This document shows, piece by piece, positions 2,832 to 63,496 of a stretch of 64,000 nucleotides of DNA. The notes under the pieces were generated by a model. The model had not been told where the DNA came from. It ran no database searches and saw nothing but the letters and a program-made list of their open reading frames with translations. Position 1 is the first letter of the stretch. Each line of letters opens with the position of its first letter. This DNA is from Heliocidaris erythrogramma (Eukaryota > Echinodermata > Echinoidea > Camarodonta > Echinometridae): NCBI GenBank assembly GCA_025617745.1, contig CM046854.1, positions 57,252,258 to 57,316,257 on the forward strand, in the 5' to 3' direction. Position numbers and translations under genes: made by a program.

Positions 2832-2987
2832 GATCATCTCACAGTTCGCAGAAAGTGTGGACCAACAATGTCAGGTGAAGTTGCAGAGATGATATGTTCA
2901 TCACCTTCTCTGAAGGAAGTTACTCTAGATGGAGAATTTCATGACAAGTTTTACACTAGACTTGCAGAAAAAGGAGATCTGTCCCAG
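2832..2987 (+). CDS. LRR exon 1 of an NLR-like receptor gene (52 codons, phase 0-0)
   Basis: The exon reads DHLTVRKCGPTMSGEVAEM onward and contains SSPSLKEVTLDGEFHDKFY, the same pattern as the seven fuller LRR exons downstream (hydrophobic strand, helix ending in A-L-C, a MPNLTEL-like second strand, then D/E-E-F-Y). It is bounded by AG at 2830-2831 and a GTAAAT donor at 2988. At 156 nt it keeps phase 0 on both sides. The family role of such repeats is ligand sensing in cytosolic NOD-like receptors; that is inferred, since no NACHT domain is in view. A second AG at 2850-2851 would give a shorter exon in another phase, so 2832 is preferred. It is the most diverged of the set: SS replaces the M-P seen in the others. 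Confidence 0.65.
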
Positions 2988-3662
2988 GTAAATGTCTTGT
3001 ACGCTACTTTTATAGGTACATTTACTCTTGTTATTTCTATAAAATATACAGTCCAAGTTTTCAGTTGAAGAAAATTATAGATACATGTATGAGTTAATAA
3101 CAATGAACAATAATTATTGTTCCCCTATTGAGACAACTGCAAGGTGACTGGACTTGAAATTTCATGTCGGCAATTATATGAATACCCTTTGCGTGCCCAT
3201 TATCCCTCTTGGTTGTTGATGAGGAGTAGATCTCCAACATGTGCTTCATAGAAGGGGTGTGTTGTAAAGATATGTGTTTAATAATATATCTAAGTCACAA
3301 GTACATGTATGATTTTTAAAAAATTAGAAAAGAATGTCAATTCATGAAATTTTTACTACCGAACAATTGGAGTGTTACAAGGTGAATCATCGAGTTGCCA
3401 ATTCATTTTTGATCGACTGCAACGTTGAAAGTTAATTAATAACCAAGATATAAAAGAAGCTTGGGAGAATAAAACACAACAATGGTCTCTAGAAGGCCTA
3501 AAGTATGTTCTACATGACAATATAAAGCCATTGTAGAATGGAGATATTGGGTGAGACAAAAAGAAAGAAATTGAGAAGAATAAATCAGTGAATAAAAATA
3601 TTTGATTAATAAGCATTCCAATAATTCACTGTTTATACTGAAAGAATGGTGCAGTACCAAGT
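2988..3662 (+). other. Intron, no recognised content
   Basis: AT-rich sequence between LRR exon 1 and the tandem repeat at 3.66 kb. Short open stretches on the minus strand here have no domain signature or family resemblance. Confidence 0.4.
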
Positions 3663-4085
3663 GTAACCCCATGGGCGGTCGGTCCGTCCGTCCGTTGCAA
3701 ATCTTGTGGATCGAACTACTTCCTCAGTTTTTGACCGAAAGTCATGAAATTTGGTTGCACACATTGGTCTTGGTGGGAAGATGTGCAAGACATATTTTTC
3801 GGATGAGTCGGAATCTGCGTTGCCATGGTAACGGCATATTTATGGCAGAAAATCAAGGAAACACCTTGCGGATCGAACTACTTCCTCAGTTTTTCACCGA
3901 AAGTCATGAAATTTGGTACACACATTGGTCTTACTGGGAAGATGTGTACAACATATTTTTTTGATGTGTCGGAAGCTGCGTTGCCATGGAAACAGCATAT
4001 CTATGGCAGTAAATCAGGAAAAAATCTTGCGGATCGAACTACTTCCTCAGTTTTCGACCAAAAGTCAAGAAAGGCTGTTGTCACG
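3663..4085 (+). repeat. Tandem repeat, about 2.5 units of 160-165 bp, with a GTCCGTCC start
   Basis: A run of GGTCGGTCCGTCCGTCCG at about 3676 is followed by three copies of a block containing GGATCGAACTACTTCCTCAG (about 3708, 3872 and 4031), then GTCATGAAATTTGG and GTTGCCATGG. The layout (CCGTCC run, then units of about 160 bp) parallels the Tsp-like elements at 11.3 and 45.7 kb, but the monomer is unrelated in sequence. It probably belongs to a third family of the same structural class. Confidence 0.7.
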
Positions 4086-4690
4086 GGGCGGGGGTATTAA
4101 TCATCATCTTCAGTGATATTTCTAGTTAAAAATGAAATTACAAATAAAAATTAATTGCCATTTTTACTTGTTTCATTTTAATCAGACACACATTTATGTA
4201 TTCTTAAAGTCTTACATTGAATTTCATTTGATAAAAGAGACAACTGAAGGAGAAAAACTGTAGGCCTAGGGGTGCATATGCTGCCCTTTTTATACAATAA
4301 TATTTTGTATACGTTCTACTTACCAAATACGATCATCCAACAATTCTAATGAGTAATGCCATGTAATGTCTGATGTACTTGTACTATTGTAGGCGAAATT
4401 TCGCGTGGGCTGCCGGCCGGCCAGCTAGCTAGCTGGCTACTTCCGTCTTGAGAGTTGAGATATCACGTGACGAACCAATTCGTCTATAAAAACCCAATGA
4501 ACTCTCTCAGTGGTCTAACTCCTTCAATGATCTCTGGGAAATAATGAATGCTAATTATGAAGACTTTTCAAAAAAATATTTTTTTGATTATATCTTTTTA
4601 AACACATGCAAGCTAAATTCCACGTTCAGTTAGAAAATGGATGATATTTCGTTATTTTAATTTTATTATAAACGACTGATGTGGAAGACT
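4086..4690 (+). other. Intron sequence with a short GC-rich palindromic patch
   Basis: No gene is recognised. A short stretch at 4408-4433 (GCCGGCCGGCC followed by AGCTAGCTAGCT) is self-complementary. The rest is AT-rich. Confidence 0.35.
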
Positions 4691-4694
4691 AGTT

Positions 4695-4816
4695 AACGCA
4701 CCCCTTCGAATAAAGCCCCCCCGCTTGTCTCGAAAAGGGTGCGTTAACGCGCAACTCCGTTCTCAACGCACCCTTTCGAGACAAGTCGGGGGGGCTTTTC
4801 TCGAAAGTGTGCATTG
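4695..4816. repeat. Long hairpin: two arms of about 52 bp with an 18-bp loop
   Basis: The arm at 4695-4746 (starts AACGCACCCCTTCGAA, runs through a C tract, ends AAGGGTGCGTT) is the imperfect reverse complement of the arm at 4765-4816 (starts AACGCACCCTTTCGAG, runs through a G tract). Each arm also contains a shorter internal inverted repeat of CGCACCC/GGGTGCG, so the whole can fold as a cruciform. A further partial copy (GCACCCTTTCGAGATAAG) lies at about 4844-4861. Probably a small foldback element. Confidence 0.75.
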
Positions 4817-4893
4817 AACGCTCCCCACGGCGCCGATCCGCACCGCACCCTTTCGAGATAAGCCGAATTTTAGTGTTTTAAATCACAATTTCG

Positions 4894-6737: not shown

Positions 6738-6908
6738 ATCAAAAAACTCGACTTCAAAGCTAGTGTTGGCAATCATGCACAGGCCTCCTCTGATCTTGCA
6801 AGTGCACTGTGTTCAATGCCACACTTGATAGAACTGAGTCTGGGTAGAATGTACACACTCCACGAGAGGTTCTATTCTACATTGGAAGTAATGGCATCAT
6901 CACTGAAG
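6738..6908 (+). CDS. LRR exon 2 of an NLR-like receptor gene (57 codons, phase 0-0)
   Basis: It begins IKKLDFKASVGNHAQ and contains SSDLASALCSMPHLIELSL followed by LHERFYSTLEVMASSLK. This is two RI-type LRR segments: strand, helix ending in ASALCSMP, second strand LIELSL, second helix. A pyrimidine-rich acceptor (TACTCTTCAG) ends at 6737 and the donor is AAG/GTACAT at 6909. The exon is 171 nt, a size also known for LRR exons of vertebrate NLR genes, and is symmetric in phase 0, so its gain or loss would not shift frame. The D-L-A-S-A-L-C core is shared with exons 3-7. The next clear LRR exon is 13 kb downstream, a gap filled with mobile elements. Confidence 0.8.
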
Positions 6909-11310: not shown

Positions 11311-14300
11311 ATGCCTCCGCCCACCGAAGGTGGGTGCCGGAGGCATTATGTTTTCGGGTTGTCCGTCCGTCCGTCCGTCTCGTTACGCGATATCTGAAGA
11401 ATCATTTGAGGTAAGAACCTCAAACTTGGTACTAGTATGTTTCCCTATACGAAGATGAACTGATTAGATTTTGGGGTAAGGAGGTCAAAGGTCAGAGGTC
11501 ACAGAGGTCAATTTACATGAAATTACATGAAATTCTTGGTTTTTAGCACCGTTACCGCGATATCTCAAGAACTATTTGAGGTAAGAACTTCAAACTTGGT
11601 ACCAGTATGTATCCCCATAGAAAGAGGAACTGATTAGATTTTGGGGTAGGTAGGTCAAAGTTCAGAGGTCACAGAGGTCAATTTACATGAAATTACATGG
11701 AATTACTGGTTTTTAGCACCGTTACCGCGATATCTCAAGAACTATTTGAGGTGAGAACTTCAAACTTGGTACTAGTATGTTTCCCTATACGAATATGAAG
11801 TGATTAGATTTTAGGGTAATGAGGTCAAAGGTCAGAGGTCACAGAGGTCAATTTACATGAAATAACATGAAATTCTTGGTTTTTAGCACCGTTACCGCGA
11901 TATCTCAAGAACTGTTTGAGGTGAGAACTTCAAACTTGGTACCAGTATGTATCCCCATAGAAAGATGAAATGATTAGATTTTGGGTAAGAAGGTCAGAGG
12001 TCACAGAGGTCAATTTACATGAAATTACATAGAATTACTGGTTTTTAGCACCGTTACCGCGATATCTCAAGAACTGTCTGAGGTGAGAACTTCAAACTTG
12101 GTACTAGTATGTATCCCTATACGAAGATGAAGTGATTAGATTTTGGGGTAAGGAGGTCAAAGGTCAGAGGTCACAGAGGTCAATTTACATGAAATTACAT
12201 GAAATTCTTGGTTTTTAGCACCGTTACCGCGATATCTCAAGAACTGTTTGAGGTGAGAACTTCAAACTTGGTACCAGTATGTATCCCCATAGAAAGAGGA
12301 ACTGATTAGATTTTGGGGTAGGTAGGTCAAAGTTCAGAGGTCACAGAGGTCAATTTACATGAAATTACATGGAATTACTGGTTTTTAGCACCGTTACGAT
12401 ATCTCAAGAACTATCTGAGGTGAGAACTTCAAACTTGGTACCATTATGTATCCCCATAGAAAGATGAACTGATTAGATTTTGGGGTAAGGAGGTCAAAGG
12501 TCAGAGGTCACAGAGGTCAATTTACATGAAATTACATGGAATTACTGGTTTTTAGCACCGTTACCGCGATATCTCAAGAACTATCTGAGGTGAGAACTTC
12601 AAACTTGGTACCAGTATGTATCCCCATAGAAAGATGAACTGATTTGATTTTGGGGTAAGTAGGTCAAAGGTCAGAGGTCACAGAGGTCAATTTACATGAA
12701 ATTACATGAAATTCTTGGTTTTTAGCACCGTTACCACGATTTCTGAAGAACTATTTGAGGTAAGAACTTCAAACTTGGTACCAGTATGTATCCCCATAGA
12801 AAGAGGAACTGATTAGATTTTGGGGTAGGTTGGTCAAAGTTCAGAGGTCACAGAGGTCAATTTACATGAAATTACATGGAATTACTGGTTTTTAGCACCG
12901 TTACCGCGATATCTCAAGAACTATTTGAGGTGAGAACTTCAAACTTGGTACTAGTATGTTTCCCTATACGAAGATGAACTGATTAGATTTTGGGGTAAGG
13001 AGGTCAAAGGTCAGAGGTCACAGAGGTCAATTTACATGAAATTACATGAAATTCTTGGTTTTTAGCACCGTTACCGCGATATCTCAAGAACTGTTTGAGG
13101 TGAGAACTTCAAACTTGGTACCATTATGTATCCCCATAGAAAGATGAAATGATTAGATTTTGGGGTAAGTAGGTCAAAGGTCAGAGGTCACAGAGGTCAA
13201 TTTACATGAAATTACATAGAATTACTGGTTTTTAGCACCGTTACCGCGATATCTCAAGAACTATCTGAGGTGAGAACTTCAAACTTGGTACTAGTATGTT
13301 TCCCTATACGAAGATGAACTGATTAGATTTTGGGGTTAGGAGGTCAAAGGTCAGAGGTCACAGAGGTCAATTTACATGAAATTACATGAAATTCTTGGTT
13401 TTTAGCACCGTTACCGCGATATCTCAAGAACTGTTTGAGGTGAGAACTTCAAACTTGGTACCAGTATGTATCCCCATAGAAAGAGGAACTGATTAGATTT
13501 TGGGGTAGGTAGGTCAAAGTTCAGAGGTCACAGAGGTCAATTTACATGAAATTACATGGAATTACTGGTTTTTAGCACCGTTACGATATCTCAAGAACTA
13601 TCTGAGGTGAGAACTTCAAACTTGGTACCATTATGTATCCCCATAGAAAGATGAACTGATTAGATTTTGGGGTAAGTAGGTCAAAGGTCAGAGGTCACAG
13701 AGGTCAATTTACATGAAATTACATGGAATTACTGGTTTTTAGCACCGTTACCACGATATCTCAAGAACTATCTGAGGTGAGAACTTCAAACTTGGTACCA
13801 GTATGTATCCCCATAGAAAGATGAACTGATTTGATTTTGGGGTAAGTAGGTCAAAGGTCAGAGGTCACAGAGGTCAATTTACATGAAATTACATGAAATT
13901 CTTGGTTTTTAGCACCGTTACCGCGATTTCTGAAGAACTATTTGTGGTAAGAACTTCAAACTTGGTACCAGTATGTATCCCCATAGAAAGAGGAACTGAT
14001 TAGATTTTGGGGTAGGTAGGTCAAAGTTCAGAGGTCACAGAGGTCAATTTACATGAAATTACATGGAATTACTGGTTTGTAGCACCGTTACCGCGATATC
14101 TCAAGAACTATCTGAGGTGAGAACTTCAAACTTGGTACCAGTATGCATCCCAATAGAAAGATGAACTGATTAGATTTTGGGGTAAGTAGGTCAAAGGTCA
14201 GAGGTCACAGAGGTCAATTTACATTAAATTACATGAAATTACTGGTTTTTAGCCTCGTTATCAAATATTTCTAGAACAGTTTGAGCCATCAACTGAATTT

Positions 14301-14338: not shown

Positions 14339-14390
14339 GTTCTCTATTTATTCAAATCAACTTTTTGTTAGGGTGGACTTGGCCTTTAAA

Positions 14391-16084: not shown

Positions 16085-16270
16085 TCTAGGGAGCATAGAA
16101 ATGCAACCATGTATATAATCCACTTTCTTTCTCCATTCTTCATTTTCTTTCAATGTTTTTTGTTCCTTTTTTAAAAAATCTTCTCATCACGCCCCCCGGA
16201 ATTTTCTTTTTCATTGTCCAAGCACTCCAAATTCATTATATCGTATTGCATACCAATTTGTTCTTCATTC

Positions 16271-18545
16271 ATGGATCTGGATGATATATTAAATGATGAA
16301 CTATTTAATTCTCAGAGCAAATACTATACTGCAAAAGAATTCATTTCCACTTTTAATTCAACAAACCAAAATGGTAAACGAAAAATTTTCAGCGTAATAC
16401 ACATAAATATCCGAAGTTTGCAAAAGAACTTTGATACTTTCAATGAATTTTTATCCATATTAAATTCATTTCCTTTTTCTATAATAGCTTTGACAGAGAC
16501 ATGGTTACACTCAACGACACCTCCCATATTTGATATTGAGAATTACACATTTAACCATATAGATCGCAAAAATGGTAAGGGAGGCGGTGTTGCGTTTTAT
16601 ATTCACAATAATCTGCATTATAAAGTGAGGCATGATATTATAATTAACGGCGTAGAAACCCTATTCATAGAAATTATTGACGATAACTATAAAAATAAAA
16701 TAGTCGGTGTAATTTATAGACCACCTAACAACATAGCTGATATATTTTTAGATAAATTAGAATCATGTCTTGAAACCGTATCTCGAGAAAACAAAGATAT
16801 TTACCTCATGGGTGATTTTAATATAGATCTCTCTTTGCCTTACACTGCCCTTGGGCAACATTTTACTAATTTATTATCATCATTTTCTTTCAAACCTCTT
16901 ACTGACAAACCTACGAGGATTACAAATACAACACATACAATAATTGACAACATCATCTCAAACGTGCTGAGTAGAGATAGTAATGGAATAATATATTACG
17001 ATATTTCAGACCATCTACCAATTTTCACGATATGTTCAGATAATAAACGCTTACATCAACATTCAAATAAAGAACACATTACTCGACGAAAAGAAACCAA
17101 ACGCAACATAGAGTCCCTAAAAACAGATTTGAGTACAGAAAGTTGGCAAGATGTTCTTCATGCGACAAATGTTAATAGTTCATATGAAATATTTATAAAC
17201 AAACTTCTTCATTATTATGATAAAAATGTGCCTCTGACAAGAATAACTTCTAGCAAAAAGAAGAATAAACAACCGTGGATCACTCAAGGAATAATAAAAT
17301 CAATATTTACTCGTAATAGATTATATAAAATATCACTTAAATCACCTACTTTGGCACATCAAAACAAATATAAAAAATACCGTAATAGGTTAACTTCTAT
17401 TATCCGTTTAGCACGAAAATCATATTTTTCTGACAAAATTGAAAGCAATAAAGACAATAACAAAACATTATGGCATACAATTAATGAAATGTTAGGCAAA
17501 AAAAGAGAAAATGCACAAAATGTTGAATTTTTAGTGAATGGAAATTACATTAAAGACAATGGTCTTATTGCTGATGCATTTGATACATATTTCACCAATG
17601 TTGGCCCAAAATTGGCCTCAAAAATTGTTACTAATGATAATGATTTTTCACAATATCTAAATAATCATACCGACCACTCATTATTTTTTAATCCAACGAA
17701 TGTTCATGAAATTTTAGAAATTGTTCAATCTCTAAGTCCTTCTAAATCTAGTGGCCATGATGGAATAAGTGTATATCTATTAAAACAAATTATTCATTTC
17801 CTGGTTTCGCCGCTGGCACATATTTTTAATCTATCTCTTTCCCAGGGAATTTTTCCTGATTCACTAAAACTTGCCAAAATAATTCCAATATTTAAAAAAG
17901 ACGACCCATGCCGTATCACAAATTATCGCCCAATCTCGTTGTTACCAAGCTTTTCTAAAATACTTGAAAAAATTGTTTACAAACGTTTATACTCTTTTTT
18001 GGATATGAATAAATTATTAATCCCCAACCAATATGGCTTCAGAAAAAATCATTCGACTGACTACGCAATCTTACAACTTTACGACAAAATAACTGATTCA
18101 TTTTCAAAAAAGGAGCACACTGTTGGGGTTTTTATGGATTTATCGAAGGCATTCGATACAATGGATCATGCTATATTATTATGTAAATTAAAGACATATG
18201 GCATCAGAGGGATCGTACTTTCCTGGTTTAAGGACTACTTAGATAATAGACGCCAATATGTTAGTTTCAAATCCAAATCATCTAATATATGTACTGTGAA
18301 ATGTGGAGTACCACAGGGCTCAATCTTAGGGCCCTTGCTGTTTTTAATATATATGAATGATATTTTCAATGCATCACCTTTACTAACATATGTTTTATTT
18401 GCAGATGATACTAACATATTTTATTCACACCTAAATCTAAACATGCTTGTTACAACTCTGAATCTAGAGCTAAAGAAATTATCATTGTGGTTTAAATCCA
18501 ATAAACTCTCTCTCAATATAAATAAAACAAACTTCATGTACTTTA
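16271..18545 (+). CDS. LINE ORF2: endonuclease and reverse transcriptase, N-terminal part
   Basis: The first ATG (MDLDDILNDELF) is taken as start; an in-frame TTG lies 57 nt upstream. The APE-type endonuclease spans about residues 40-270: HINIRSL, LTETWL, GGGVAFYIH, VIYRPP, GDFNID near residue 181, and SDHLPIF near 246. The RT follows: SGHDGIS, NYRPISLLPSFSKILE near 551, QYGFRKNHST, LSKAFDT, GVPQGSILGPLLF, and FADDTN near 711. All expected catalytic residues are visible. The product would nick target DNA and reverse-transcribe the element RNA. The frame leads straight into the insertion at 18546, which adds a stop a few codons on, so this copy is inactive. The clade within CR1/Jockey is uncertain. 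Confidence 0.9.
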
Positions 18546-18886
18546 GGATTTGAGGGTTTGCATGGTGAAGTTGTAATTCAGAAAAAAGGTTTGCGGTACA
18601 ACCATTGTTTTCTTTTCAACGCAGGATTCGATTGATGTCACTTATCCTTTCAATGCAGGTACCTTGATGTTATTTATCCTTTCAATGTAGGTACTTTGAT
18701 GTTACTGTTACTATTTCTTTCTATGTTATTTGTTTGCATCCATTTTATTAAGTGAATTGCTGCTTCATATATAAATTCTGCTGATTTATTCGCTCTTCTC
18801 ATTCTCCTGACGACGGCCAGAGCATTCTGACCGGAACGTGGAGTTATTCCAACTCACATGGTTGTACCGCAAACCTTTTTTCTGAA
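18546..18886 (+). mobile_element. Short Penelope-related insertion (341 bp) with 13-bp target duplication
   Basis: It interrupts the LINE RT and is flanked by TTCATGTACTTTA at 18533-18545 and 18887-18899. An internal inverted pair (AAAAGGTTTGCGGTACAACC near 18585-18604 and its reverse complement near 18859-18879) almost reaches both ends; the left end carries an extra 5' part with GGTTTGCATGGTG. Similar left-end and inverted motifs bound the Penelope-like palindrome at 26898-34019. A hammerhead-like motif sits near its right end. It has no coding capacity. Confidence 0.75.
18807..18840 (+). ncRNA. Hammerhead-ribozyme-like motif, degenerate
   Basis: CTGACGA (fits CUGANGA) is followed by a 7-bp stem with one mismatch (CGGCCAG / CTGACCG) and GAACGTG where GAAACGTC would be expected. 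It resembles the motif at 28511-28543 but is imperfect. Hammerhead motifs are known in Penelope-like elements. Activity is doubtful. Confidence 0.35.
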
Positions 18887-19965: not shown

Positions 19966-20259
19966 TCCAAGTTAACTTCCAAAATATTATTTTTCCTTAT
20001 AATGCAGTTTATTGATGTATGATTCAGTTATCACATGGTGGTTGAGAACTTCTGATTATCTACAAATTGATTTTTCTTCTTGAGATTTATTTATTTTTGC
20101 ATTTTCAAACAAATTGCTCTTTCTTTGCTATCATGGCATAATTACACAGAAAAAATTGGAAAGATAAGTATGTACATATACCTGTATTTAATAGAGTAAT
20201 GTGGCTAGGGGAATTTGCCAAGATAAATGACATACTATCTTCAATGTTTATGTCTTCAG
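19966..20259 (+). other. LRR-unit intron upstream of exon 3
   Basis: This sequence (AACTCCAAG-type start, GATTCAGTTATCACA, AAATTGATTTTTCTTC, CTTTGCTATCATGGCATAAT) is repeated before exons 4 and 5 and in a diverged form before exons 6 and 7. It defines the duplicated unit. It ends with acceptor ATGTCTTCAG. Confidence 0.75.
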
Positions 20260-20454
20260 GTCCACACTGTAACTTTGGAAATGCCAATCCAAGATCTGAC
20301 GAGACAAAACCGACAACTGTCACCATCAGCCTGCTGTGGCCTTGCAAGTGCACTTTGCACCATGCCCAACCTGAGAGAGCTGACACTGGAATGTGTGACA
20401 TCTCTCCGTGATGAGTTCTATTCTACCTTTGGTGAAAAGGCATCGTCCATCAAG
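20260..20454 (+). CDS. LRR exon 3 of an NLR-like receptor gene (65 codons, phase 0-0)
   Basis: It begins VHTVTLEMPIQDL and contains SACCGLASALCTMPNLRELT then SLRDEFYSTFGEKASSIK: two RI-type LRR segments. The acceptor ATGTCTTCAG ends at 20259 and the donor is AAG/GTACAT at 20455. At 195 nt it is eight codons longer than the 171-nt exons; the extra residues lie before SPSACCGLA. The sequence is almost the same as exon 4 (26312-26506), showing a recent duplication of the unit. The minus-strand open frame across it is a shadow. Role in ligand sensing is inferred from the NLR family. Confidence 0.85.
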
Positions 20455-20529
20455 GTACATTCACCTACATGTGTGGGTAGATCCAAACAAACGTAATTGA
20501 AACTAGAAATGTCCTTGTACAGTTGTACA

Positions 20530-20940
20530 CTCATTCTCATATGCAGGACCAGTTAATCGGTTGGACTATGCATAAACCTCTAACACAACATCTCGGCCTA
20601 CTGTATGTAATAAAGAAAAGAAGAGACTTTTAAAAAGAAACTCAAAACCAAACATGATTTTAGCTAGTTCATATCATCTGTTGTGAGCTAGAAGGGCGTT
20701 AACCTTGTGTGATATGCTGTTAATCGACACCTTTCTGGCTTTCAGTGTACAATATACATACATTCCCATTTTAAAGTGTCTTGATATTTGTTATATTATG
20801 TCTAATCATTGATAATTAGTATATTGAATACTCTTATGTTATTGTTCCCATTTGTATCAGTGCTCTTATCAGTGCTCTTATCAGTGCTCTGATCAGCATG
20901 CTGTAAAAGCAAAACAGTTAATGTTCACTTAAATAAGTAG
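20530..20940 (+). repeat. LRR-unit intron block, copy of 10365-10747 and 26582-26897
   Basis: Contains CATCTCGGCCTACTGTATG, GAGCTAGAAGGGCGTTA and a short tandem TCAGTGCTCTTA repeated two to three times. It is shared almost unchanged with the other copies but absent after exons 5, 6 and 7, where a different intron follows. Confidence 0.75.
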
Positions 20941-21163: not shown

Positions 21164-24100
21164 GTAATTTTTCCGTGAGAAATTACATGAGAGCCCGTAA
21201 TGCGCATGCGCGGTCAATTACGTTTTGCAAATGGTGGTCTCACGCTGAAAACTGTGTTTTCGTCGCGGTTTTTTCCTCTTTTTTCACCATCTATGGATAT
21301 TTGCCGTTTACCACAGCTATTTTCGGAGTTTTTATTGTTTTCTACTCCCCCTCTCCGCTTTTGGGAGTTCGTTGACGGTTTTTGGAGATAATGGAATCAA
21401 TTTTCTCGTGTGAGGAGAAATCTCCGACTTCGGGCCAGACGTCGGCAAAGCCAGACGCACGCCCTATGCACTCCTGTCGCGTTACCGGGGGTGCGAGTAG
21501 CGAAGCTACTGTAGATGCCAAGAAGCCCTCGGGCTCGACTACAGGCAAGAACAAACCCAAGGGGGATCTTCCGACAAAGGAAAATCTAAAGTGCGTGCGA
21601 AGCCAAAGATTTCATCTCAGCCTAAAAAGGCAGAAACCCCCGATTTGGGGGATAGACTGGATAAACTGGAAGCCCTTTCGGGCAAAGTTATGGAGAGTCT
21701 CCCGTCCACCTCGTCTGCGGCGCAGAGTCCGGGAACTTCGCATTCCACCTTCGGTGCGAGTAATCGTCCTGGTACGTCGGAAGGCGGCCATTTTGTTCGA
21801 GATCCTTCGGAATTAATGGATATCTCAGATACCGATGAACCTCTTGCCGGTCAAGGCTGATGATGATCGTGATGATATTTATGAACATGAAATGGAGGAA
21901 GAGCTAGTTGTACCTAAGCTCGCAGCTAAATTTGCTCAACCCAGTGAGATTGGTGAACCACTTAATGATAGTTTGGCCAGTTCGGCATCTTACTTAATCT
22001 CACATCAGTTGGAGGGAAAAACCCTAAATGAGACTGGGGAAAAGTACATTCCACCCAGCAACTGCCCCTTGCTTACTGTTCCCAAAGTGAATGCTCCAAT
22101 TTGGGACAATTTGAAATCAGGCACCAAGAGCAGGGATCTTAAACTACAGAGGGTTCAGCTGTCCCTCATCAGAGGTTTGGTGGCCTTTTTGCGTACTCTT
22201 GATGCAGCTGACGATATTTCAGCCACTCAGCAGGATGCCTTGGCTCTGTTGAGCAATACTAACTTTGAACTTAACTCTTTACGCAAGCACTTGATCAGGC
22301 CAGACATGAACGCTAGATTCACGCACCTGTGCAAACCCACAACTATGGTGGGGAAACAACTGTTTGGTGATGATCTACCCAAGCAAGTGAAAGACTTGCA
22401 GGGACAACAGAAGGCAACAGCGGGGGTGATGAGGCCACAGATTAACCCCAGTTCTGGCCAGCATAGCCATCATTTTCACCCCTACGCCAGGTCACACAAG
22501 TCCAAGTACCATGATGCGGGATGGACGCCGTCCACCAGAGATTCAAGCCGCTCACAACCTAAGGCTGGTAGTTCTCACAGGCCTTTTTTAGGCAATCAGC
22601 CCCATCAGGGGCAGACTTATCACCAGAAAGACAAACACCAGAGCAGTGCCCTGCCTCGGCTAGGAGCAAAACAGAAAACCTACACCTACAACTACAAGTT
22701 CAAGAAGAACTAAAGAACACCAACCTCGAAGAGGTAGGTCAGTTTTCTCATTCCAAAGATTCATTTACATGTAGTACTCCTGTTGGAGGTCGACTGAAAC
22801 AGTTTTATGAAAATTGGTGCAGCATTACATCTGATGCTTTCATTTTGGCTGCAGTGCAAGGGTACAAACTTGAATTTGATCCAAAGTGCATGCCACCGAG
22901 AAGATCTCGGCCATTTTTCCAATTCAAGTCCTGTCAGACTGAACAGGCTGCTATCAGCAATGAAATTATGAAACTTTTGGACAAAAATGTCATAGAGAAA
23001 TGTAATCATGATGAAGGCGAATTCATTTCCAATATTTTCACTCGGCCCAAGAAGAATGGCGGGCTGCGTCTGATTTTAGACCTGTCAGACCTAAATAAGA
23101 GCCTTCAGTACCATCATTTTAAGATGGATGATATTCATGTAGCTGCTGCACTTATTTCTCCAAATTGTTATCTTGCTTCAGTCGACCTCCAAGATGCTTA
23201 TTACTCTGTTCCCATCCATCCTAGCCACAGAAAGTATTTGAAATTTGTATGGAAAGGGCAACTGTTACAGTTCAAGGTCCTTCCAAACGGCCTTAGCACA
23301 GCCCCTAGGTTATTCACCAAGTTACTTAAGCCTGTTCTTGCCTCGCTCAGACAGGCAGTTCATGTAGTGGTTGGATACTTAGATGATACCATAAACATTG
23401 GAAAAGACAAGGAACGTACTAAGGCTGCAATCACAGCTACTACAGATACTCTTTCAGAGTTGGGGTTCCTGGGTCATCCTGAAAAGTCAGTCCTTATACC
23501 TATGCAGGAGATAAAATTCCTTGGGTTCATGCTAAATTCAGTAATTATGCATCTTTCTCTACCTGAAGATAAGAAAGATGATATAGTCACAGACTGCACA
23601 GATCTACTTCATGCCAACAACCCTCTCATTCGGGTGGTAGCTAGAGTGATAGGGAAGTTGATAGCAACATTCCCGGCTGTACAATATGGTCCCTTGTTTT
23701 ATCGCTCCCTTGAAAGGGATAAGATTACTGCCCTGAAGAAATGTAAGGGTCATTTTGATAGGCCGATGAAGCTCTCCTCTAAGGCAAAGGAGCAACTAAC
23801 CTCCACACTAAGATAGGAGGAAGATGGAATGAGCAAGAGTTGAAACGAGCTCAAAATAATGAAATTAATTTCTTAGAGACCCTAGCCGCAGGTCTAGGTT
23901 TAAGGGCTTTTTGTGAGGATAGGCGTGATTTGCACGTGCTCATGAGACTAGACAATCAAACAGCAGTAAGCTACCTGAATAACTTTGGGGGCATCAAATC
24001 TAGAGATTGTGATCATATGGCTTCGGAAATCTGGAAATGGTGTATGATGAGAAATATATGGATAACTGCAGCCCATCTACCAGGCTGTCTAAACACTGAG

Positions 24101-26107: not shown

Positions 26108-26311
26108 ATCTTATAAATTGATTTTTCTTCTTGAGATTTATTTATTTTCGCATTTTCAAACAAATTGCTCTTTCTTTGCTATCATGGCATAATTACACAG
26201 AAAAAAATTGGAAAGATAAGTATGTACATGTACCTGTATTTAATAGAGTAATGTGGCTAGGGGAATCTGCCAAGATAAATGACATACTATCTTCAATGTT
26301 TATGTCTTCAG
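26108..26311 (+). other. LRR-unit intron upstream of exon 4
   Basis: Near-identical to 20052-20259, from AAATTGATTTTTCTTC through the acceptor ATGTCTTCAG at 26302-26311. It supports a unit duplication that included the exon and its flanks. Confidence 0.75.
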
Positions 26312-26506
26312 GTCCACACTGTAACTTTGGACATGCCAATCCCAGTTCTGCCGCCACAAAACCGACAACTGTCACCATCAGCCTGCCGTGGCCTTGCAAG
26401 TGCACTTTGCACCATGCCCAACCTGAGAGAGCTGAAACTGGAATGTGTGACATCTCTCTGTGATGAGTTCTATTCTACCTTGGATGAAAAGGCATCGTCC
26501 ATCAAG
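26312..26506 (+). CDS. LRR exon 4 of an NLR-like receptor gene (65 codons, phase 0-0)
   Basis: It begins VHTVTLDMPIPVLPP and contains SACRGLASALCTMPNLREL then SLCDEFYSTLDEKASSIK. Boundaries are the AG at 26310-26311 and AAG/GTATAC at 26507. It is 195 nt long, like exon 3, and differs from it mainly in the segment between the first strand and SPSAC (QDLTRQ versus PVLPPQ), which in RI-type LRRs lies on the exposed side. This could mean variable-site diversification, but a few substitutions are not a test. It is followed by the same intron block as exon 3, broken by the Penelope-like insertion at 26898. Confidence 0.85.
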
Positions 26507-27187
26507 GTATACATTCACCTACATGTGTGGGTAGATCTAAACAAACGTAATTGAAACTAGAAATGACCTTGTACAGTTGTACACTCATTCTCATATGCAG
26601 GACCAGTTAATCGGTTGGACTATGCATAAACCTCTAACACAACATCTCGGCCTACTGTATGTAATAAAGAAAAGAAGAGACTTTTAAAAAGAAACTCAAA
26701 ACCAAACATGATTTTAGCTAGTTCATATCATCTGTTGTGAGCTAGAAGGGCGTTAACCTTGTGTGATATGCTGTTAATCGACACCTTTCTGGCTTTCAGT
26801 GTACAATATACATACATTCCCATTTTAAAGTGTCTTGATATTTGTTATATTATGTCTAATCATTGATAATTAGTATATTGAATACACTTATGTTATTAGA
26901 TGATCTTTGAAGGTTTGCATGGTGGAGCTTATAACGTGGAGAAGGTTTACGGTTCACCATGTGTGTTGGTAGGAGGAAAGGGAAAAGGAAATTAGAAATG
27001 GATAGACGAGAAAGGATGACAAGAGAGAAAAGAAGAAATATTCTTTCGTGACAATGGGTGAAGTCCTGAAAAGGACTGTAGACCAGATGAGATGAGATGA
27101 GAAGACTTGGTTGATGATCGATGGATGAGCAGCGATGGATTGAGTAGCGAAGGTTTGAGTAGATGAGGCTTGAGTAGGAGGTTACTC

Positions 27188-27220
27188 GACGTTTCGGACA
27201 GGTTGACTGTCCGTCATCAG
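27188..27220 (-). ncRNA. Hammerhead-ribozyme-like motif, left arm of the Penelope-like palindrome
   Basis: On the minus strand CTGATGA (27220-27214) is followed by a stem (GGACAG/CTGTCC, one extra or mismatched C at its base), then GAAACGTC. It is the mirror copy of the motif at 28511-28543. ACGT in the GAAACGTC part is self-complementary, so stem III could form only between two molecules or the two arms. Confidence 0.5.
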
Positions 27221-41281: not shown

Positions 41282-41306
41282 TGCTTTTTGATGCTTTTGA
41301 TGCTTT

Positions 41307-43150: not shown

Positions 43151-44036
43151 TTCTAAGGCTCCTATTGGTTCAATTGCGGATTTCTTAATCTCGTTATTTG
43201 ACAAAGGGAGATCTATCTCTACTATCCGAGGCTACCGTTCGGCGATCGGGGCCATTCATTCGGGTTTCTCAGATGGTTCGGGGATTTCCAATTCCCCGCT
43301 ACTAAGTGGTTTGATTCGTTCGTTCTTTCTGAAACGACCTTCTTTTTCTAAGTTAGTGCCGTCTTGGAGTCTGCCTAAGGTCCTGGAGGCCTTGGCGAAA
43401 CCTCCTTTCGAACCGTTAGGTGAAGCTTCGCTTCATCATCTTACGGTTAAGACGCTCTTTTTGGTAGCTATTGCCTCTGGGCAGAGGCGCAGTACTCTTC
43501 ATGCTCTCTGTCTTACTCCTGGTCATGTTCGCTGGGAGAGAAAAGGCGTTAGATTGATTCCTAGGGCTTCTTTTGTTGCCAAGAATCAGACAGCTGCCTC
43601 TGGCCCTGTTGAAATTTTTCTTTGTCCGCTTTCTGACTTTTCTTCGGTGCGTGAGGACAAAGTTTGGTGTCCTGTAAGGGCTCTCAAATGGTATATTGAT
43701 AAGACTAAGTCTTATCGTAAGGATGATCAGTTGTTCCTGATCACTAGAGAGCCTTTTTCTCCTGCCTCTCTTGATTCCATCTCTAGATGGATCGTTGAAG
43801 CTATTAGGGCCGCTGGCACAGAGGCTCTTTTATCCGACAGTAAGCCTCGTGCTCATGATACTCGTAGTGTCAGCACTTCTTGGGCTCTGTTTCAAGGTGT
43901 GGCGCTTGTTGATATTTTGAAGGCTGCTTATTGGCGTTCGCCCAATTCCTTCATTTCTTGCTACCTTAGGGATGTTCCCGCAGGTGAAGCTTTGTTTGCG
44001 TCAGCCACCTTGAAGGCCGCTGTGTCTTCTTTGTAG
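43151..44036 (+). CDS. DIRS copy C: tyrosine recombinase region
   Basis: Part of the fossil element 38470-44450. Carries STIRGYRSAIGAIHSGFS, SGQRRSTLHAL, RAHDTRSVSTSWALF and SFISCYLRD, hence the R, H-x-x-R and Y residues of the tyrosine recombinase family. Nearly identical to copy B over this span. Confidence 0.82.
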
Positions 44037-45666: not shown

Positions 45667-46690
45667 TTTTTTTATGCCTCCGCCCACCGAAGGTGGGTGC
45701 CGGAGGCATTATGTTTTCGGGTTGTCCGTCCGTCCCACTTCTCGTTACCGCGATATCTGAAGAATCATTTGAGGTAGGAACCTCAAACTTGGTACTAGTA
45801 TGTATCCCCATACGAAGATGAACTGATTAGATTTTGGGGTAAGTAGGTCAAAGGTCAGAGGTCACAGAGGTCAATTTACATGAAATTACATGAAATTCTT
45901 GGTTTTTAGCACCGTTACCGCTATATCTCAAGAACTGTTTGAGGTAAGAACTTCAAACTTGGTACTAGTATGTTTCCCTATACGAAGATGAACTGATTAG
46001 ATTTTGGGGTAAGGATGTCAAAGGTCAGAGGTCACAGAGGTCAATTTACATGAAATTACATGTAATTCTTGGTTTTTAGCACCGTTACCGCGATATCTCA
46101 AGAACTGTTTGAGGTGAGAACTTCAAACTTGGTACCAGCATGTATCCCCATAGAAAGATGAACTGATTAGATTTTGGGGTAAGTAGGTCAAAGGTCACAG
46201 GTCACAGGTCAATTTACATGAAATTACATGTACATGAAATTCTTGGTTTTTAGCACCGTTACCACGATTTCTGAAGAACTATTTGAGGTAAGAACTTCAA
46301 ACTTGGTACCAGTATGTATCCCCATAGAAAGAGGAACTGATTAGATTTTGGGGTAGGTAGGTCAAAGTTCAGAGGTCACAGAGGTCAATTTACATGAAAT
46401 TACATGGAATTACTGGACAGTTGGTTTTTAGCACCGTTACCGCGATATCTCAAGAACTATCTGAGGTGAGAACTTCAAACTTGGTACCAGTATGCATCCC
46501 CATAGAAAGATGAAATAATTAGATTTTGGGGTAAGTAGGTCAAAGGTCAGAGGTCACAGAGGTCAATTTACATGAAATTACATGAAATTACTGGTTTTTA
46601 GCCTCGTTATCAAATATTTCTAGAACAGTTTGAGCCATCAACTGAATTTAGGCGGAGGCATATAGGAGACGCAGCCGCATTCATCTTGTT
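45667..46690 (+). mobile_element. Tsp/pearl-like element, short copy with about five 170-bp repeats
   Basis: The 5' hairpin (ATGCCTCCGCCCACCGAAGG then CGGAGGCAT), GTCCGTCCGTCC, five monomers of the same family as 11.4-14.3 kb, and the same 3' end (TTAGGCGGAGGCATATAGGA, GCATTCATCTTG). Inserted in LRR-unit intron. It shows that element length varies by monomer number while the ends are fixed. Confidence 0.8.
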
Positions 46691-46908
46691 AATGGATGGA
46701 TTTAATAGAACTTCTAATTTTCTATAAATTGATTTTTCTTGAGATTTGTACCCTTTGCAGTTTTCCATTTTCAAACAGCATATTTATTTGCTTTCATGGT
46801 ATTACACAGAAATAATAGGAAAGATAAGTATGTACATGTATAAGAATAATGTGACTAGAGAAATGCACCAGGATAAATGCATAACATCTTCAATGAATAT
46901 ATCTTCAG

Positions 46909-47079
46909 GTCCAAAATGTCATTTTGAAAGGAAATGAACTCTCACTGTCACCATCAGCCTGCCATGGCCTTGCAAGTGCACTTTGCACCATGCCAAACCT
47001 GAGAGAGCTGAAACTGGAATGGATATCTCTCCGTGATGAGTTCTATTCTACCCTGAAAGAAAAGGCATCGCTCATCAAG
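46909..47079 (+). CDS. LRR exon 6 of an NLR-like receptor gene (57 codons, phase 0-0)
   Basis: It begins VQNVILKGNELSL and contains SACHGLASALCTMPNLREL then SLRDEFYSTLKEKASLIK. Acceptor TATATCTTCAG ends at 46908; donor AAG/GTACGT at 47080. It is 171 nt, the basic length of the set. The partner exon 7 has four extra codons after the first strand. Both share a unit-specific second strand (KLEWIS versus TLECVTS in exons 3 and 4). Confidence 0.85.
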
Positions 47080-47699
47080 GTACGTCCACCTACATATGTA
47101 GGTATGTCATGTCTAAACAAACATAATTGAAACTAGATTTGACTAACTACAACTATACAGGTAGGCTAGAATGAGAAGTGTGAATGAACTACCGTTACAT
47201 TCCCGCTATATTAATTAGGACTCAAAATGTGAACACAAGATATATAGAGTAAGGGAGGGAGTTTTCAGCCACTTGAGACAGAATCCAGGTTTAGGACACT
47301 TTAATCGAGAATTATTTTCACTTATTACTCATATCATGGAAGCTTGTACTGTTACTGTTTCAGCAAAAGAAATCAATGTACCTGTATGCCCAATGAAGTT
47401 AACTCCAAGATAACTTCCAAAAATTTTTTTCTTTATAATGCAGTGTAATCTTTAACCATTTTGATGTGATACCTATTTTTAATGGATGGTTTTAATAGAA
47501 CTTCTAATTTTCTATAAATTGATATTTCTTGAGATTTGTACCCTTCGCAGTTTTCCATTTTCAAACAGAATATTTATTTGCTATCATGGCATTACACAGA
47601 AATAATAGGAAAGATTAGTATGTACATGTATAAGAGTAATGTGACTAGAGAAATGCACCAGGATAAACGACATAACATCTTCAGTGAATATATTTTCAG

Positions 47700-47882
47700 G
47701 TCCAAAATGTCATTTTGAAAGGAAAAGAATACTCACGCAGCCCACAACTGTCACCATCAGCCTACCATGGCCTTGCAAGTGCACTTTGCACCATGCCCAA
47801 CCTGAGAGAGCTGAAACTGGAATGGATATCTCCCCGTGATGAGTTCTATTCTACCCTGAAAGAAAAGGCATCGCTCATCAAG
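47700..47882 (+). CDS. LRR exon 7 of an NLR-like receptor gene (61 codons, phase 0-0)
   Basis: It begins VQNVILKGKEYSRSPQ and contains SAYHGLASALCTMPNLREL then SPRDEFYSTLKEKASLIK. Acceptor ATATTTTCAG ends at 47699; donor AAG/GTACGT at 47883. It is 183 nt long. Against exon 6 it has an in-phase 12-nt difference in the first inter-strand loop and an L-to-P change at SLRD/SPRD, while flanking introns are almost the same. This is the clearest sign of recent unit duplication followed by change in the exposed loop. Confidence 0.85.
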
Positions 47883-48240
47883 GTACGTCCACCTACATAT
47901 GTAGGTATGTCATGTCTAAACAAACATAATTGAAACTAGATTTGACTAACTACAACTATACAGGTAGGCTAGAATGAGAAGTGTGAATGAACTACCGTTA
48001 CATTCCCGCTATATTAATTAGGACTCAAAATGTGAACACAAGATATATAGAGTAAGGGAGGGAGTTTTCAGCCACTTGAGACAGAATCCAGGTTTAGGAC
48101 ACTTTAATCGAGAATTATTTTCACTTATTACTCATATCATTGAAGCTTGTATTGTTACTGTTTCAACACAAGAAATCAATGTACCTGTATGCCCAAGGAA
48201 GGTACATATATCTCCAAGTTGACTTCTAAATTATTGTTTT

Positions 48241-48500
48241 GTGGATAAATCCCCGGACTGTGAACCAAGAGGTCCGGGTTGGCAAGACTTTAATCTACAT
48301 TTGCCACTCTCTACCCAGGTGTTAAATGGGTACCCGGTAGTATGCAAAAGTTAAATGTTGTTTGCTTAGCAATGTGAGTGCCACGGCCCATTGCTGGAAT
48401 AATAATAATATAATAATAATATATCTGTAAAGCGCTTTATAGAGACATCACTGATGTATTAGGCGCTATATAAAAGCGGAATATTATTATTGCATTGTAA
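48241..48500 (+). mobile_element. SINE-like repeat with AATAAT tail and ATATAGCGC-type end
   Basis: The block with CTCTACCCAGGTGTTAAATG and GGGTACCCGGTAG, followed by GTGAGTGCCACGGCCCATTG and an AATAATAATA tail, is a familiar arrangement of dispersed SINE-type repeats in marine deuterostomes. It continues into a GTAAAGCGCTTTATAGAGAC / TAGGCGCTATATAAAAGC inverted pair like the one at 4.9 kb. The promoter boxes are not clear in this copy. Confidence 0.5.
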
Positions 48501-49459: not shown

Positions 49460-49562
49460 TTTTCTAGAGATTTGTTCCCTTTGCAGTTTTCCATTTTCAA
49501 ACAGAATGTCTTTTTTGCTATCATTGCATTATACAGAAATAAAAGGAAAGATAAGTATTCAT
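49460..49562 (+). pseudogene. Remnant of an LRR exon unit (intron only, exon lost)
   Basis: TCTAGAGATTTGTTCCCTTTG through AAAAGGAAAGATAAGTAT matches the sequence upstream of exons 6 and 7 (46740-46830, 47530-47620) and stops before the acceptor. A sixth unit was therefore once present and has lost its exon. Confidence 0.65.
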
Positions 49563-53129: not shown

Positions 53130-53830
53130 TTATACATTTAAAGTTTGGCCCATACATGTGGGCAGGTTTTGGAGATCATGCAGAAGCGAATTCCAGAGCC
53201 GTGGAGCCACTGATGAGAATGCACGGCCCCCAAACGTCTTGAGTCTAGTCCTTGGAACCTGGAGGGTAATTCCTGGAGTCCGTAAGCCAGGGCGGTGGTG
53301 ACGTTCTTCGATGAGGGAAGTGTACTTTGGCGCCAGATTGTGTATAGCCTTGAAGGTTAGCAGCAATATCTTGAATTGAATTCTTGACCGTATCGGCAAC
53401 CAGTGGAGCTCAGTCAGGATAGGTGTGATGTGGTCATATTTTCTGCGTCCGGTGCCGCTGCATTTTGAACAGATTGTAGCCTGTTAAGTTAAGATGTCGA
53501 GAGGCCTGCAAGAAGACTGTTGCAGAAATCCAATCTAGATGTAATAAGAGAGTGGATTAGACTTTCCGCAGCGGCACGAGTGAGGAATGATCGAATCGCT
53601 GCCATCTTGCGTAACTGGAAATAAGCCGTCTTGCAAACATGAGAAATATTCCGGTCCAAGCTCATGGAGTCATCAAAGTAGACACCAAGATTGCGTGCAT
53701 TTTGAAAGGGGGAGACAGATACGTCGCCAACAGTCAAATTAGTTGAGATGATCTTACTTCTCATTTGTGTAGAACAGATGATCAAATACTCTGTTTTGCT
53801 TTCATTTAGCTTCACAAAGTTTCTTGTCAT
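53130..53830 (-). pseudogene. L2-like LINE C-terminal region
   Basis: Piece 53830-53489 (FVKLNESKTEYLIICSTQMR, LTVGDVSVSPFQNARNLGVY, SHVCKTAYFQLRKMAAIRSF, ITSRLDFCNSLLAGLS) and piece 53399-53130 (ILLLTFKAIHNLAPKYTSLI, FGGRAFSSVAPRLWNSLLHD). Between them the linking motif LHWLPI-like is read from another frame (about 53400). Confidence 0.85.
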
Positions 53831-55153
53831 CCATTGTCTTGTTTCATGGAGGCATTTATCTTTGGTGCAGCCGATACCTCTCCATCACCATCCTTAGGAT
53901 CAAAGCTCACGTACAGCTGAGTATCATCCGCGTAGAAGTGGACATTAAGTCCATGATGTCGGGCAACGTGTCCAAGTGGGGTGGTGTACAAGGTGAAGAG
54001 GAGCGGTCCGCGGACTGATCCCTGAGGTACACCATACCGTAGAGCTGCTTCTTTGGAGACAGTGCCGTTGATGTTGACAGCTTGTCGTCTGGAGTCCAAA
54101 TAGGAGCGAAACCACTCAAGAGCTGATCCGTTGATCTTGAAAACATCTTGTAACCGCTGTAGCAGTATGTCGTGGTCGATAGTGTCGAAAGCAGCAGATT
54201 GGTCCAAAAGAACTAACATGACAGCTTTCTTGTCATCTACTGCCCTAAGGATGTCATCGGTTATCTTGATTAGAGCTGTTTCGACACTGTGGTATTTCTT
54301 GTAGGCAGATTGTAAAGATTCACACAGTCCATTCTCTTCAAGATATGTTGTTAGTCTTATTGCCACTATTTTCTCAATGACTTTGGCAAGAAATTGGAGA
54401 TTGGTCTGTAGTTGCTCAACACATCTTGGTCGAGTGATGTTTTCTTCAGGACAGGGGTTACATGGGCTAATTTGAGCTCATATGGAACCTGTCCTTCCCG
54501 GAGAGATGCATTGACAATAACTGTTATAGGCCAGGCCATCACATCGGCATTCTGCTTTATGAAAATAGTTGGTATTGGGTCAAGTGCACATGTCTTTGTT
54601 GTAGACATCTTAATGATGTTCTCTACTTCTGCCGGGCAAGTTGGTGGAAGAAAAGCCATACAGTCGTCAGTGGTGAAAAGCAGGGTGAACTGTCATGCAC
54701 AACTCTGGTTTGAATACCTGCCCGATTTGTCTGAAGGCCTTCCCTTATTTGGTCGATCTTCCCGACGAAGAAGTGAGAGAACTCTTCAGCAAGACTAGCC
54801 TCACAGTCATTGTGTGGAAGCTTCTTTACATCTGGACCATGGAGGAGCTTATTGATGATGCTATACAATGCCTTCTGATCCTTATGGCATTCAACAATAA
54901 GGTCATTGTAATGAGCTGACTTAGCGCTCTGGAAGAGTTCTTTTACACGGTTCCTCTGGTTCTTGAATAGCTCTTTGTCTATTAAAAGCTTTGTTCTTCT
55001 CCACTTTCTCTCTAACTTTCGTTGTTTCCTTTTGTCGTGAGGAATTTCTTCATTGTACCAGGGTGTAGCAGGCTTTTCAACACTAAGACATGATTTCTCT
55101 GGAGCACGTTTGTTGAGTATCTCATCCAGAGTGGCGTTGTACTGAGATACCAA
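53827..55153 (-). pseudogene. L2-like LINE linker and reverse transcriptase region
   Basis: Pieces: 55153-54623 (KPATPWYNEEIPHDKRKQRK, a basic linker with W/P motif), 54659-54366 (TKTCALDPIPTIFIKQ, VTPVLKK, NYRPISN) and 54366-53827 (QSAYKKYHSVETALIKITDD, LLDQSAAFDTIDHDILL, YGVPQGSVRGPLLF, HFYADDTQLYVSF). The YADD catalytic motif is near 53925. The usual GSVLGPLLF reads GSVRGPLLF here. Two frame changes separate the pieces. Confidence 0.85.
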
Positions 55154-60800: not shown

Positions 60801-60837
60801 CTACTATTCTGTGACATCTTTTCCCCCCTTTTAATGC

Positions 60838-61664: not shown

Positions 61665-61835
61665 GTCCAAACTCTCACATTGAGGAGTCACCATATCTCT
61701 ACTGAAGCTTCAGGTGACGTAGCAGAAGCACTGTGCTCCATGCCAAACCTGACTGAGCTCTACATCACTGGAAACTTAATCAGTGAGGAGTTTGTTTCTG
61801 CAATGGAAACGGGGGTATCAACCTTGAATCCGAAG
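61665..61835 (+). CDS. LRR exon 8 of an NLR-like receptor gene (57 codons, phase 0-0)
   Basis: It begins VQTLTLRSHHISTEASGDVA and contains EALCSMPNLTELYITGNLIS then EEFVSAMETGVSTLNPK. This is the most canonical RI-like LRR exon in the window: strand LTL, helix ASGDVAEALCSMP, second strand LTELYI, second helix. The acceptor AG ends at 61664; donor AAG/GTACAT at 61836. It is 171 nt. It is not part of the duplicated unit family (its introns differ) and is closer in style to exons 1 and 2, so the array of exons 3-7 probably expanded between older flanking exons. Confidence 0.85.
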
Positions 61836-62029
61836 GTACATATCGATCATGTAGTGCAAAAACTTCAAATCACCTTAATTTTCCAGCAAGTTTGCATTTG
61901 GGTTATATTATCAGTAAAGTTAATGCAAATTATTGATGGAAGGTCAAAGAATAGACTTCCTCAGTTCTCATAAGTCATATACATGTACACCTATTTTGTA
62001 TGAGGGTATGATACGGGGTTACCTAACTA

Positions 62030-62225
62030 GTCATAAGGACTGCTATCCATAATGCGTGACTAAAGGAAGAGCAGTTTTGTATGAATAGCAGTCCTTCTAA
62101 ATAGCGAGCAAACCATAGACAAATTACCTCGCTATTCACAAGGACCGCCATTCATAAGGACCACTATTCATAACGCGTGTTAATGAATAGGGAGCAGTCC
62201 TTATGAATAGCGAGCGGACCCCTAA
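62030..62225. repeat. Inverted and direct repeats of an ATTCATAAGGACTGCTATTC motif
   Basis: CATAAGGACTGCTATCCATAA at 62032, its reverse GAATAGCAGTCCTT at 62081, TCACAAGGACCGCCATTCAT at 62136 and GCAGTCCTTATGAATAGCGAG at 62192 can form several hairpins. Probably a small MITE. Confidence 0.6.
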
Positions 62226-62292
62226 AAGTTTGCTCTGGAATACTTACATTTTGGGAAAATCACAGTGTTGATCATTTATTATTCTCAAAGTA

Positions 62293-62467
62293 CGGTGGAA
62301 CCTTGTTATAACAAACTCCTTGGGACCAAGGAAATTACCTCTTTATATCGAAACCTTGTTATATCAGGGCTAAAAAGCAATAGAATACAAAGAAGTGCGA
62401 CCTGCAAACTTACCTTGTTATAATGAGAGTTTGTTATAACGCTGCTCTTTATAACGAGGTTCCACTG
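62293..62467. mobile_element. MITE with TGGAACCTCGTTATAA termini
   Basis: The ends CGGTGGAACCTTGTTATAA and TTATAACGAGGTTCCACTG are inverted. They resemble pogo/Tigger-type MITEs; TA lies at the left junction, the right junction is less clear. 175 bp, non-coding. Confidence 0.65.
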
Positions 62468-63379
62468 CAATAGATATCTGTCATGGCTAATTCTCTTAAT
62501 TATGAATATCTTACAGATAGAATCTGATGCTGAACTTCACAGAATGGTGCTTATTCATGTCTCTGAATAATAAAAGAATGACAAAAAAAAAATTAATAAG
62601 TAAACTTTTAAAACTGCACAAAAAAAATGGCTGGCTTGATTGTGGATGCACTTCTGTGAAATCATAGTGGACATGTTTACGGTCTTAAATTGGCAAGAAC
62701 TTATGCGCACATGCGCAATAATATGCGCTTGTACGCGCATTACGCGCACACAAACATGTAAATATACTTTTATTGCTGATTTCACATCATTTCAAAATTT
62801 TAAGACGCTGTACTGTGCACGCTTCAAAGCATTATAGGAACATGCCTACTTAATGCCTCATTATTATTACTCTATCGCATTTCAAGACTGTACGTCCCAC
62901 AGCCCACCTGTTTAGTTGTATTTGTTCAACTCTAGTTGTTAATATATTTCTGAAAGGTTCCGAGGTGATAACGTGTAAAGAGAAAAGTGATGCTATTATT
63001 TGCAAGTGCACCTAGGTAATGTGAAATGCATAATCCTCTGCATTGTTATGCTTTAATATAGCTGGCTGTGATGTCACATGAAGCAAAACATGATATTGGA
63101 GGATATTGATAGCAAGTTGCAGAAACATAGGGAAAATGTTAAAATTATGTCATAATACATATTTAGATCAAACAGTTGATGATTTGTCCATGCACAGACC
63201 CATGCTCATTTAGAAAATTCATTATGCATTTGCATATCATGGGTTCTTTCACCAGCCACCCAGTAGACATATTTTATTTCAGCCTAGTGTTTGTCCTTCC
63301 TTTGAAAAAGTAAACCAAGAAGAAAACTGCATTAATTTTTTTGAATTTGACATAGTATTATTTATTATTGTCCCTTCAG
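62468..63379 (+). other. Intron before exon 9, includes an alternating purine-pyrimidine tract
   Basis: No gene is recognised. At about 62702-62752 ATGCGCACATGCGCAATAAT and TACGCGCATTACGCGCACAC form an alternating, Z-DNA-prone tract. The intron ends with TGTCCCTTCAG at 63379. Confidence 0.5.
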
Positions 63380-63496
63380 GTTCAAGTCATCTACATTGAC
63401 GTGTACTTGCATAGTCCCAACAACACAGAGCAGTGGAATTTCCTTAGAAACTTCAGAGACAGATTGGCTTCTAAAGGAATTGCTGTTAGGAGTGTG
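63380..63496 (+). CDS. LRR exon 9 or C-terminal exon of an NLR-like receptor gene (39 codons, phase 0-0)
   Basis: It begins VQVIYIDVYLHSPNNTEQW and contains NFLRNFRDRLASKGIAVRSV. Acceptor CCCTTCAG ends at 63379; donor is GTG/GTGAGC at 63497. At 117 nt it is shorter than the other exons and has only one strand-helix pair without the MPNLTEL segment, as expected near the end of an LRR array. It is followed at once by an AAT microsatellite. If the donor is not used, the frame runs on through repeat sequence, which is unlikely to be coding. Confidence 0.6.

Follow-up and report, generated by a model that had tools for sequence, protein, structure and literature searches.

Do nine short leucine-rich repeat (LRR) exons spread along 64,000 nucleotides of the Heliocidaris erythrogramma genome (1.06 Gb) belong to one receptor gene, or were they drawn from several neighbouring genes? 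The stretch analysed, hereafter the window, corresponds to C2:57252258-57316257. An earlier note, made from the letters of the window alone, had described the exons and proposed that they encode the LRR part of an NLR-like receptor or, alternatively, of adjacent paralogues. Our analysis of the window and its surroundings indicates that the LRR exons are very probably part of one echinoderm innate-immune receptor gene of Death-like-NACHT-LRR (NLRD) type, spanning approximately 71 kb from a Death-like exon upstream of the window to exon 9. The parts of this gene model are listed below, with positions counted from the first letter of the window and negative positions lying upstream of it.

-7434 to -7163, + strand: Death-like exon, 47% to the paralogue on contig C3; donor in phase 1
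-4892 to -3111, + strand: NACHT open frame of 594 codons, Pfam NACHT E 6.5e-20
-4864 to -3138, + strand: likely NACHT exon within this frame, starting in phase 1, with a consensus donor in phase 0
2832-2987, + strand: LRR exon 1, 156 bp; matched by the independent profile, E 2.8e-4
6738-6908, + strand: LRR exon 2, 171 bp; matched by the independent profile
20260-20454, + strand: LRR exon 3, 195 bp, within duplicated module 20061-20843; matched by the independent profile
26312-26506, + strand: LRR exon 4, 195 bp, within duplicated module 26112-26897; matched by the independent profile
37654-37836, + strand: LRR exon 5, 183 bp, within duplicated module 37453-37911; matched by the independent profile
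46909-47079, + strand: LRR exon 6, 171 bp, within duplicated module 46686-47438; matched by the independent profile
47700-47882, + strand: LRR exon 7, 183 bp, within duplicated module 47476-48248; matched by the independent profile
61665-61835, + strand: LRR exon 8, 171 bp; top match of the independent profile, E 8.7e-16
63380-63496, + strand: putative exon 9, diverged, 117 bp; AG/GT borders, phase 0, opening residues VQ as in several other exons

LRR exons of the window

The nine exons were recovered with the positions and lengths first described for them, and in 9/9 the length is a multiple of three, the borders are AG and GT and the phase is 0 on both sides, the search for borders in the window being limited to in-frame (phase-0) positions. 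Several exons have an additional in-frame AG or GT, in which case we chose the pair that was common to the copies or that fitted the alignment. The core helix that the earlier note called nearly constant holds for seven of the nine exons, in the form ASALC/AEALC-T/S-MP-N/H-L; exon 1 carries AEMICSSPSL in its place and exon 9 is without the motif. By likeness, exons 3-5 form one group and exons 6-7 another, with exons 1, 2, 8 and 9 divergent.

A first LRR profile was built from eight of the window's own exons and was circular, so a second, independent profile was built only from the 21 exons of a paralogue approximately 17 Mb away. This profile matched eight of the nine exons, each on the + strand and with E values from 2.8e-4 to 8.7e-16, and found no other match among 8620 six-frame open segments in 264 kb comprising the window, the 150 kb before it and the 50 kb after it. 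Five second-order Markov shuffles produced no profile match at E<0.1. Exon 9 was matched neither by the independent profile nor by Pfam, and is too short, at 117 bp, for two repeats; a terminal exon resembling it was found neither beside the C3 paralogue nor up to 50 kb past the window. We regard exon 9 as doubtful, and the one uncertain member of the set: it is perhaps a C-terminal cap and perhaps a chance open frame.

The ribonuclease-inhibitor style of the repeats, on which, together with exon size, the note had based its proposal, is borne out by two results. Exons 1-8 joined scored 36.7 bits against Pfam LRR_4 (cut-off 27), with the matched stretch lying within exon 8, and the AlphaFold model of exon 4 has the order strand-helix-strand-helix with a mean predicted local distance difference test score (pLDDT) of 79.0. 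Judging from this one modelled exon, a full-size exon would comprise two ribonuclease-inhibitor-like repeats. None of the seven exons scanned singly exceeded a Pfam cut-off (exons 4 and 5 were scanned only within the joined sequence), and a phmmer search with the joined LRRs gave weak matches only, the best being leucine rich repeat protein 4r5d (E 0.0085). A genome search with Pfam LRR_6 had no match, but its control likewise matched nowhere, hence this search is uninformative.

Upstream NACHT and Death-like exons

A NACHT frame that ends 3.1 kb before the first letter of the window, in the same orientation as the LRR exons, supports their assignment to an NLR. This frame scored 72.1 bits against Pfam NACHT (cut-off 26.7), and its best relative in the PDB is NLRP3 (E 2.3e-7). 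LRR exon 1 lies 6.0 kb beyond the likely NACHT exon, the phase-0 donor of which makes it compatible with LRR exon 1. The Death-like exon is situated approximately 2.3 kb before the NACHT exon, and its phase-1 donor agrees with the start of the latter; from the Death-like exon onward, the model has no junction at which the phases conflict. The upstream open segments that align with the C3 paralogue are mostly shared repeats, and the Death-like and NACHT exons alone look gene-like.

The Death-like exon has the look of a Death domain, although its profile scores are low. Compared with the PDB it ranked an unrelated designed protein (E 0.0019) ahead of PIDD (E 0.18) and an LRR-and-death-domain protein (E 0.41). 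The upstream NACHT and Death or CARD domains that the note had proposed to look for were thus recovered in part: a NACHT domain is present, as is a Death-like exon, which itself has no Pfam Death match.

One gene or several

When NACHT sequences of this gene and of its C3 paralogue were used as queries, this frame was in both cases the sole match among 8620 open segments in the 264 kb. Among the matches listed on C2, the next member of the family (57568369-57570054, minus strand) is 252 kb past the window. One gene is therefore the simplest reading. The genome list of the family, for which 74 of 321 candidates were scored, holds at least 116 matched pieces; a separate Pfam NACHT list (101 of 312 candidates scored) is without this gene's own NACHT, and its counts are consequently lower bounds.

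The introns of this gene are up to 13.8 kb long, and the gene is stretched by retroelements. Reverse-transcriptase frames were identified in the introns at 16175-18550, 22572-23813, 30370-32532, 41301-44033 and 53830-54477 (minus strand), that is, in five of the seven frames scanned, and the same 170-bp satellite is present in two introns, at 11381-14260 (17 copies) and 45743-46609 (5 copies). This bears on the possibility, raised in the earlier note, that the exons are divided between neighbouring genes, taken here as at least two NLR genes of which those further along are without NACHT or have lost it. The long span from 2832 to 63496, the length of the introns and the unlikeness of the exon groups would all fit such an arrangement. 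However, the long introns contain the retroelements and satellites just described, all exons share strand and phase, and there is a single NACHT frame in 264 kb, with the next listed member far off on the other strand; we consider separate genes highly improbable.

Several results weigh against the single NLRD-type gene that we favour. Every splice junction of the model is inferred from DNA, and a first coding exon with a start codon was not found upstream. In the NACHT frame the winged-helix profile NOD2_WH reached 17.7 bits, below its cut-off of 23.1. The Death-like exon of this gene has no Pfam Death match, that of the C3 paralogue scored 14 bits (E 0.056), below the cut-off of 22.6, and a genome-wide Death search gave no match at the locus among the matches listed (150 of 338 candidates scored). 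A Foldseek search with one LRR unit returned nothing significant at E<=0.001, and the sole match of exon 9 in the genome search was exon 9 itself, with no relative.

Two of the retroelements, at 28518-33509 and 39005-44036, contain a reverse transcriptase frame and are 98.9% identical over the 752 bp compared; they may be DIRS-like. We also noted a pair of inverted copies at 27030-27664 and 28067-28711 (645 bp, 97.4% identity), overlapping a minus-strand frame at 27220-28215 which to us has a GIY-YIG-like look. A Pfam scan of that frame gave no match.

Duplication of exon modules and paralogous arrays

The suggestion that such symmetrical exons could be duplicated was confirmed at the DNA level by intron-exon-intron copies within the window. 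Modules 20061-20843 and 26112-26897 are 97.3% identical over 786 bp, module 37453-37911 is a third copy of this module at 91-92%, and modules 46686-47438 and 47476-48248 are 93.1% identical over 773 bp. Copying took the flanking intron along on both sides of the exon, giving three copies of one module and two of another; as every LRR exon has phase 0 at both ends, a further copy of such an intron-exon-intron block leaves the frame intact. At 49461-49558 only a remnant of a module's 5′ intron part is present, without an exon and 89-90% identical to the 46.7-kb and 47.5-kb modules.

Arrays of such exons are also present in paralogues. On the minus strand at C2:40101001-40133000 there are 21 LRR exons of 162-174 bp within 32 kb, with phase-0 borders for 21/21 (only phase-0 borders were sought). 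Among these 21 exons, 13 protein and 14 DNA sequences are distinct, several exons being exactly identical, and there are pairs in which the 3′ intron flanks are the same and the 5′ flanks differ. Such mosaic flanks suggest exchange between modules. In the C3 paralogue the exons recur every ~2 to 2.7 kb. NACHT clusters of the same family were also observed at C2:63.9-65.3 Mb and C2:39.7-40.9 Mb, on the minus strand for all among the matches listed.

A second alternative is that the gene is decaying, its duplicated exons being unused relics at a locus invaded by retroelements. Decay would account for the reverse transcriptases in five of the seven frames scanned, for the exon-less relic at 49461-49558 and for the loss of 12 bp near the end of the exon copy at 37654. 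Yet the frame is open in all nine exons and in the NACHT exon, splice dinucleotides are in place, and both indels between exon copies are of 12 bp, a multiple of three, so that we judge decay improbable. We favour instead a gene in which LRR-coding exons arose by recent copying and may be evolving rapidly.

Rate of change in copied exons

The youngest copies in the window are those of exons 3 and 4, which differ at 7 of 588 intron sites and 11 of 195 exon sites, the latter corresponding to 10.5 nonsynonymous differences over 146.7 sites and 0.5 synonymous differences over 48.3 sites. The nonsynonymous excess has a one-sided Fisher P of 0.0004 against the introns and of 0.054 against synonymous sites, and the remaining two pairs of the three-copy group (exons 3-5) gave P values of 0.014 and 9e-6. 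With loop limits taken from the AlphaFold model of exon 4, variable positions in this group make up 9 of 14 in the loop after the first strand versus 10 of 51 elsewhere (P 0.002). Diversifying selection on this loop is suggested by the sequences of the three-copy group alone.

A number of points count against selection. The three pairwise tests within the three-copy group are mutually dependent and their counts were rounded for the Fisher test, and pair 3/4, taken by itself, lacks a significant excess in the loop (4/14 versus 6/51, P 0.13). Pair 6/7 has no exon excess (5/130 versus 27/582, P 0.73; N-part alone P 0.18), and in the C2 paralogue array exon divergence exceeded intron divergence in just 56 of the 161 pairs with an intron divergence <0.2. 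We therefore rejected the idea that exons outrun introns as a general rule; the excess is confined to one copy group.

Gene conversion in introns could also mimic selection. That the excess in the three-copy group stems from conversion homogenising the introns, or from chance at few sites, is a possibility that we take seriously without favouring it, and one that concerns the selection claim only and leaves the gene model untouched. The mosaic flanks of the paralogue array (identical 3′, unlike 5′ introns in some pairs) and the absence of an excess in pair 6/7 are both in keeping with it. Against it, synonymous change in pair 3/4 (0.5 of 48.3 sites) is as low as intron change, so conversion would need to have spared nonsynonymous sites alone.

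Mitochondrial code

In the mitochondrial contig C24, COX1 was located at 1877-3217 and, in a comparison of translation tables 5 and 9, AAA was read as Asn and ATA as Ile, residues which we presume to be kept at these sites in other animals. This combination corresponds to the echinoderm mitochondrial code (table 9).

Proposed function

If the receptor works as known NLRs do, sensing a ligand or keeping the receptor closed would fall to the LRR arc, ATP-driven oligomerisation to the NACHT domain and the recruitment of signalling partners to the Death-like domain. With all exons in phase 0, modules could multiply without damage to the frame. A more far-reaching proposal, which we regard as improbable, is that the LRR arrays of the family are receptor-diversity cassettes, in which multiplication and conversion of modules in the germ line, selection on the strand-proximal loop and a choice among in-phase exons by immune cells would together yield many LRR combinations per gene.

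Comparison with known systems

Echinoderms have large NLR families. Among the titles and abstract beginnings of open-access papers listed by our searches, none dealt with arrays of LRR exons in the NLRs of echinoderms, and the diversification of the sensor ends of these receptors seems little described. The locus and its paralogues offer defined exon modules for tests of duplication, conversion, selection and in-frame skipping. The architecture of the gene is already known from human and zebrafish NLRs.

In human NLRPs the LRR domain is encoded by many short frame-preserving exons of two repeats each (Hoss et al. 2019, PMC6642158), those of NLRP3 being exactly 171 bp with a border inside the beta-strand (PMC6642158). 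The exons described here are likewise frame-preserving (9/9 in the window and 21/21 in the paralogue) and three of the nine are 171 bp long. The human proteins differ in having a PYD at the N-terminus, where this gene has a Death-like exon; further differences of the present gene are exon lengths that vary over 117-195 bp, introns of up to 13.8 kb that carry retroelements, and the recent origin of some of its exon copies. Zebrafish NLR-B30.2 genes have one large NACHT exon and one exon per LRR, with >20 LRRs in groups 2b and 4, and form a large family with gene conversion, in which the LRRs are not particularly variable and signs of positive selection are seen in B30.2 (PMC4852459). They resemble the sea urchin genes in the single large NACHT exon, exon-wise LRRs, variable LRR number, conversion and family size.

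Alike in domain order, and likewise known from an echinoderm, are the NLRD proteins (Death-NACHT-LRR), reported from sea urchin, amphioxus and sponge (PMC11508797) in a paper whose main text does not contain the word exon; the difference is that the Death assignment in the present gene is weak by profile. In a sea-urchin selection scan, only 29 of 217 innate immunity genes were tested once alignments that contained paralogues had been discarded, with NLRs among the families named (PMC5521101).

Brown algal ROCO genes carry tandem 72-bp phase-2 LRR exons of one repeat each, which undergo shuffling, diversifying selection and alternative splicing (PMC11378527). They share with the sea urchin arrays same-phase tandem LRR exons, exon duplication, diversifying selection, which here is suggested for the three-copy group, and a proposed diversity of binding, and differ in having a GTPase in place of NACHT and in their 72-bp, phase-2, single-repeat exons. 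If the cassette proposal is true, the LRR arrays of this family would be an animal counterpart of the diversity of brown-algal ROCO or arthropod Dscam.

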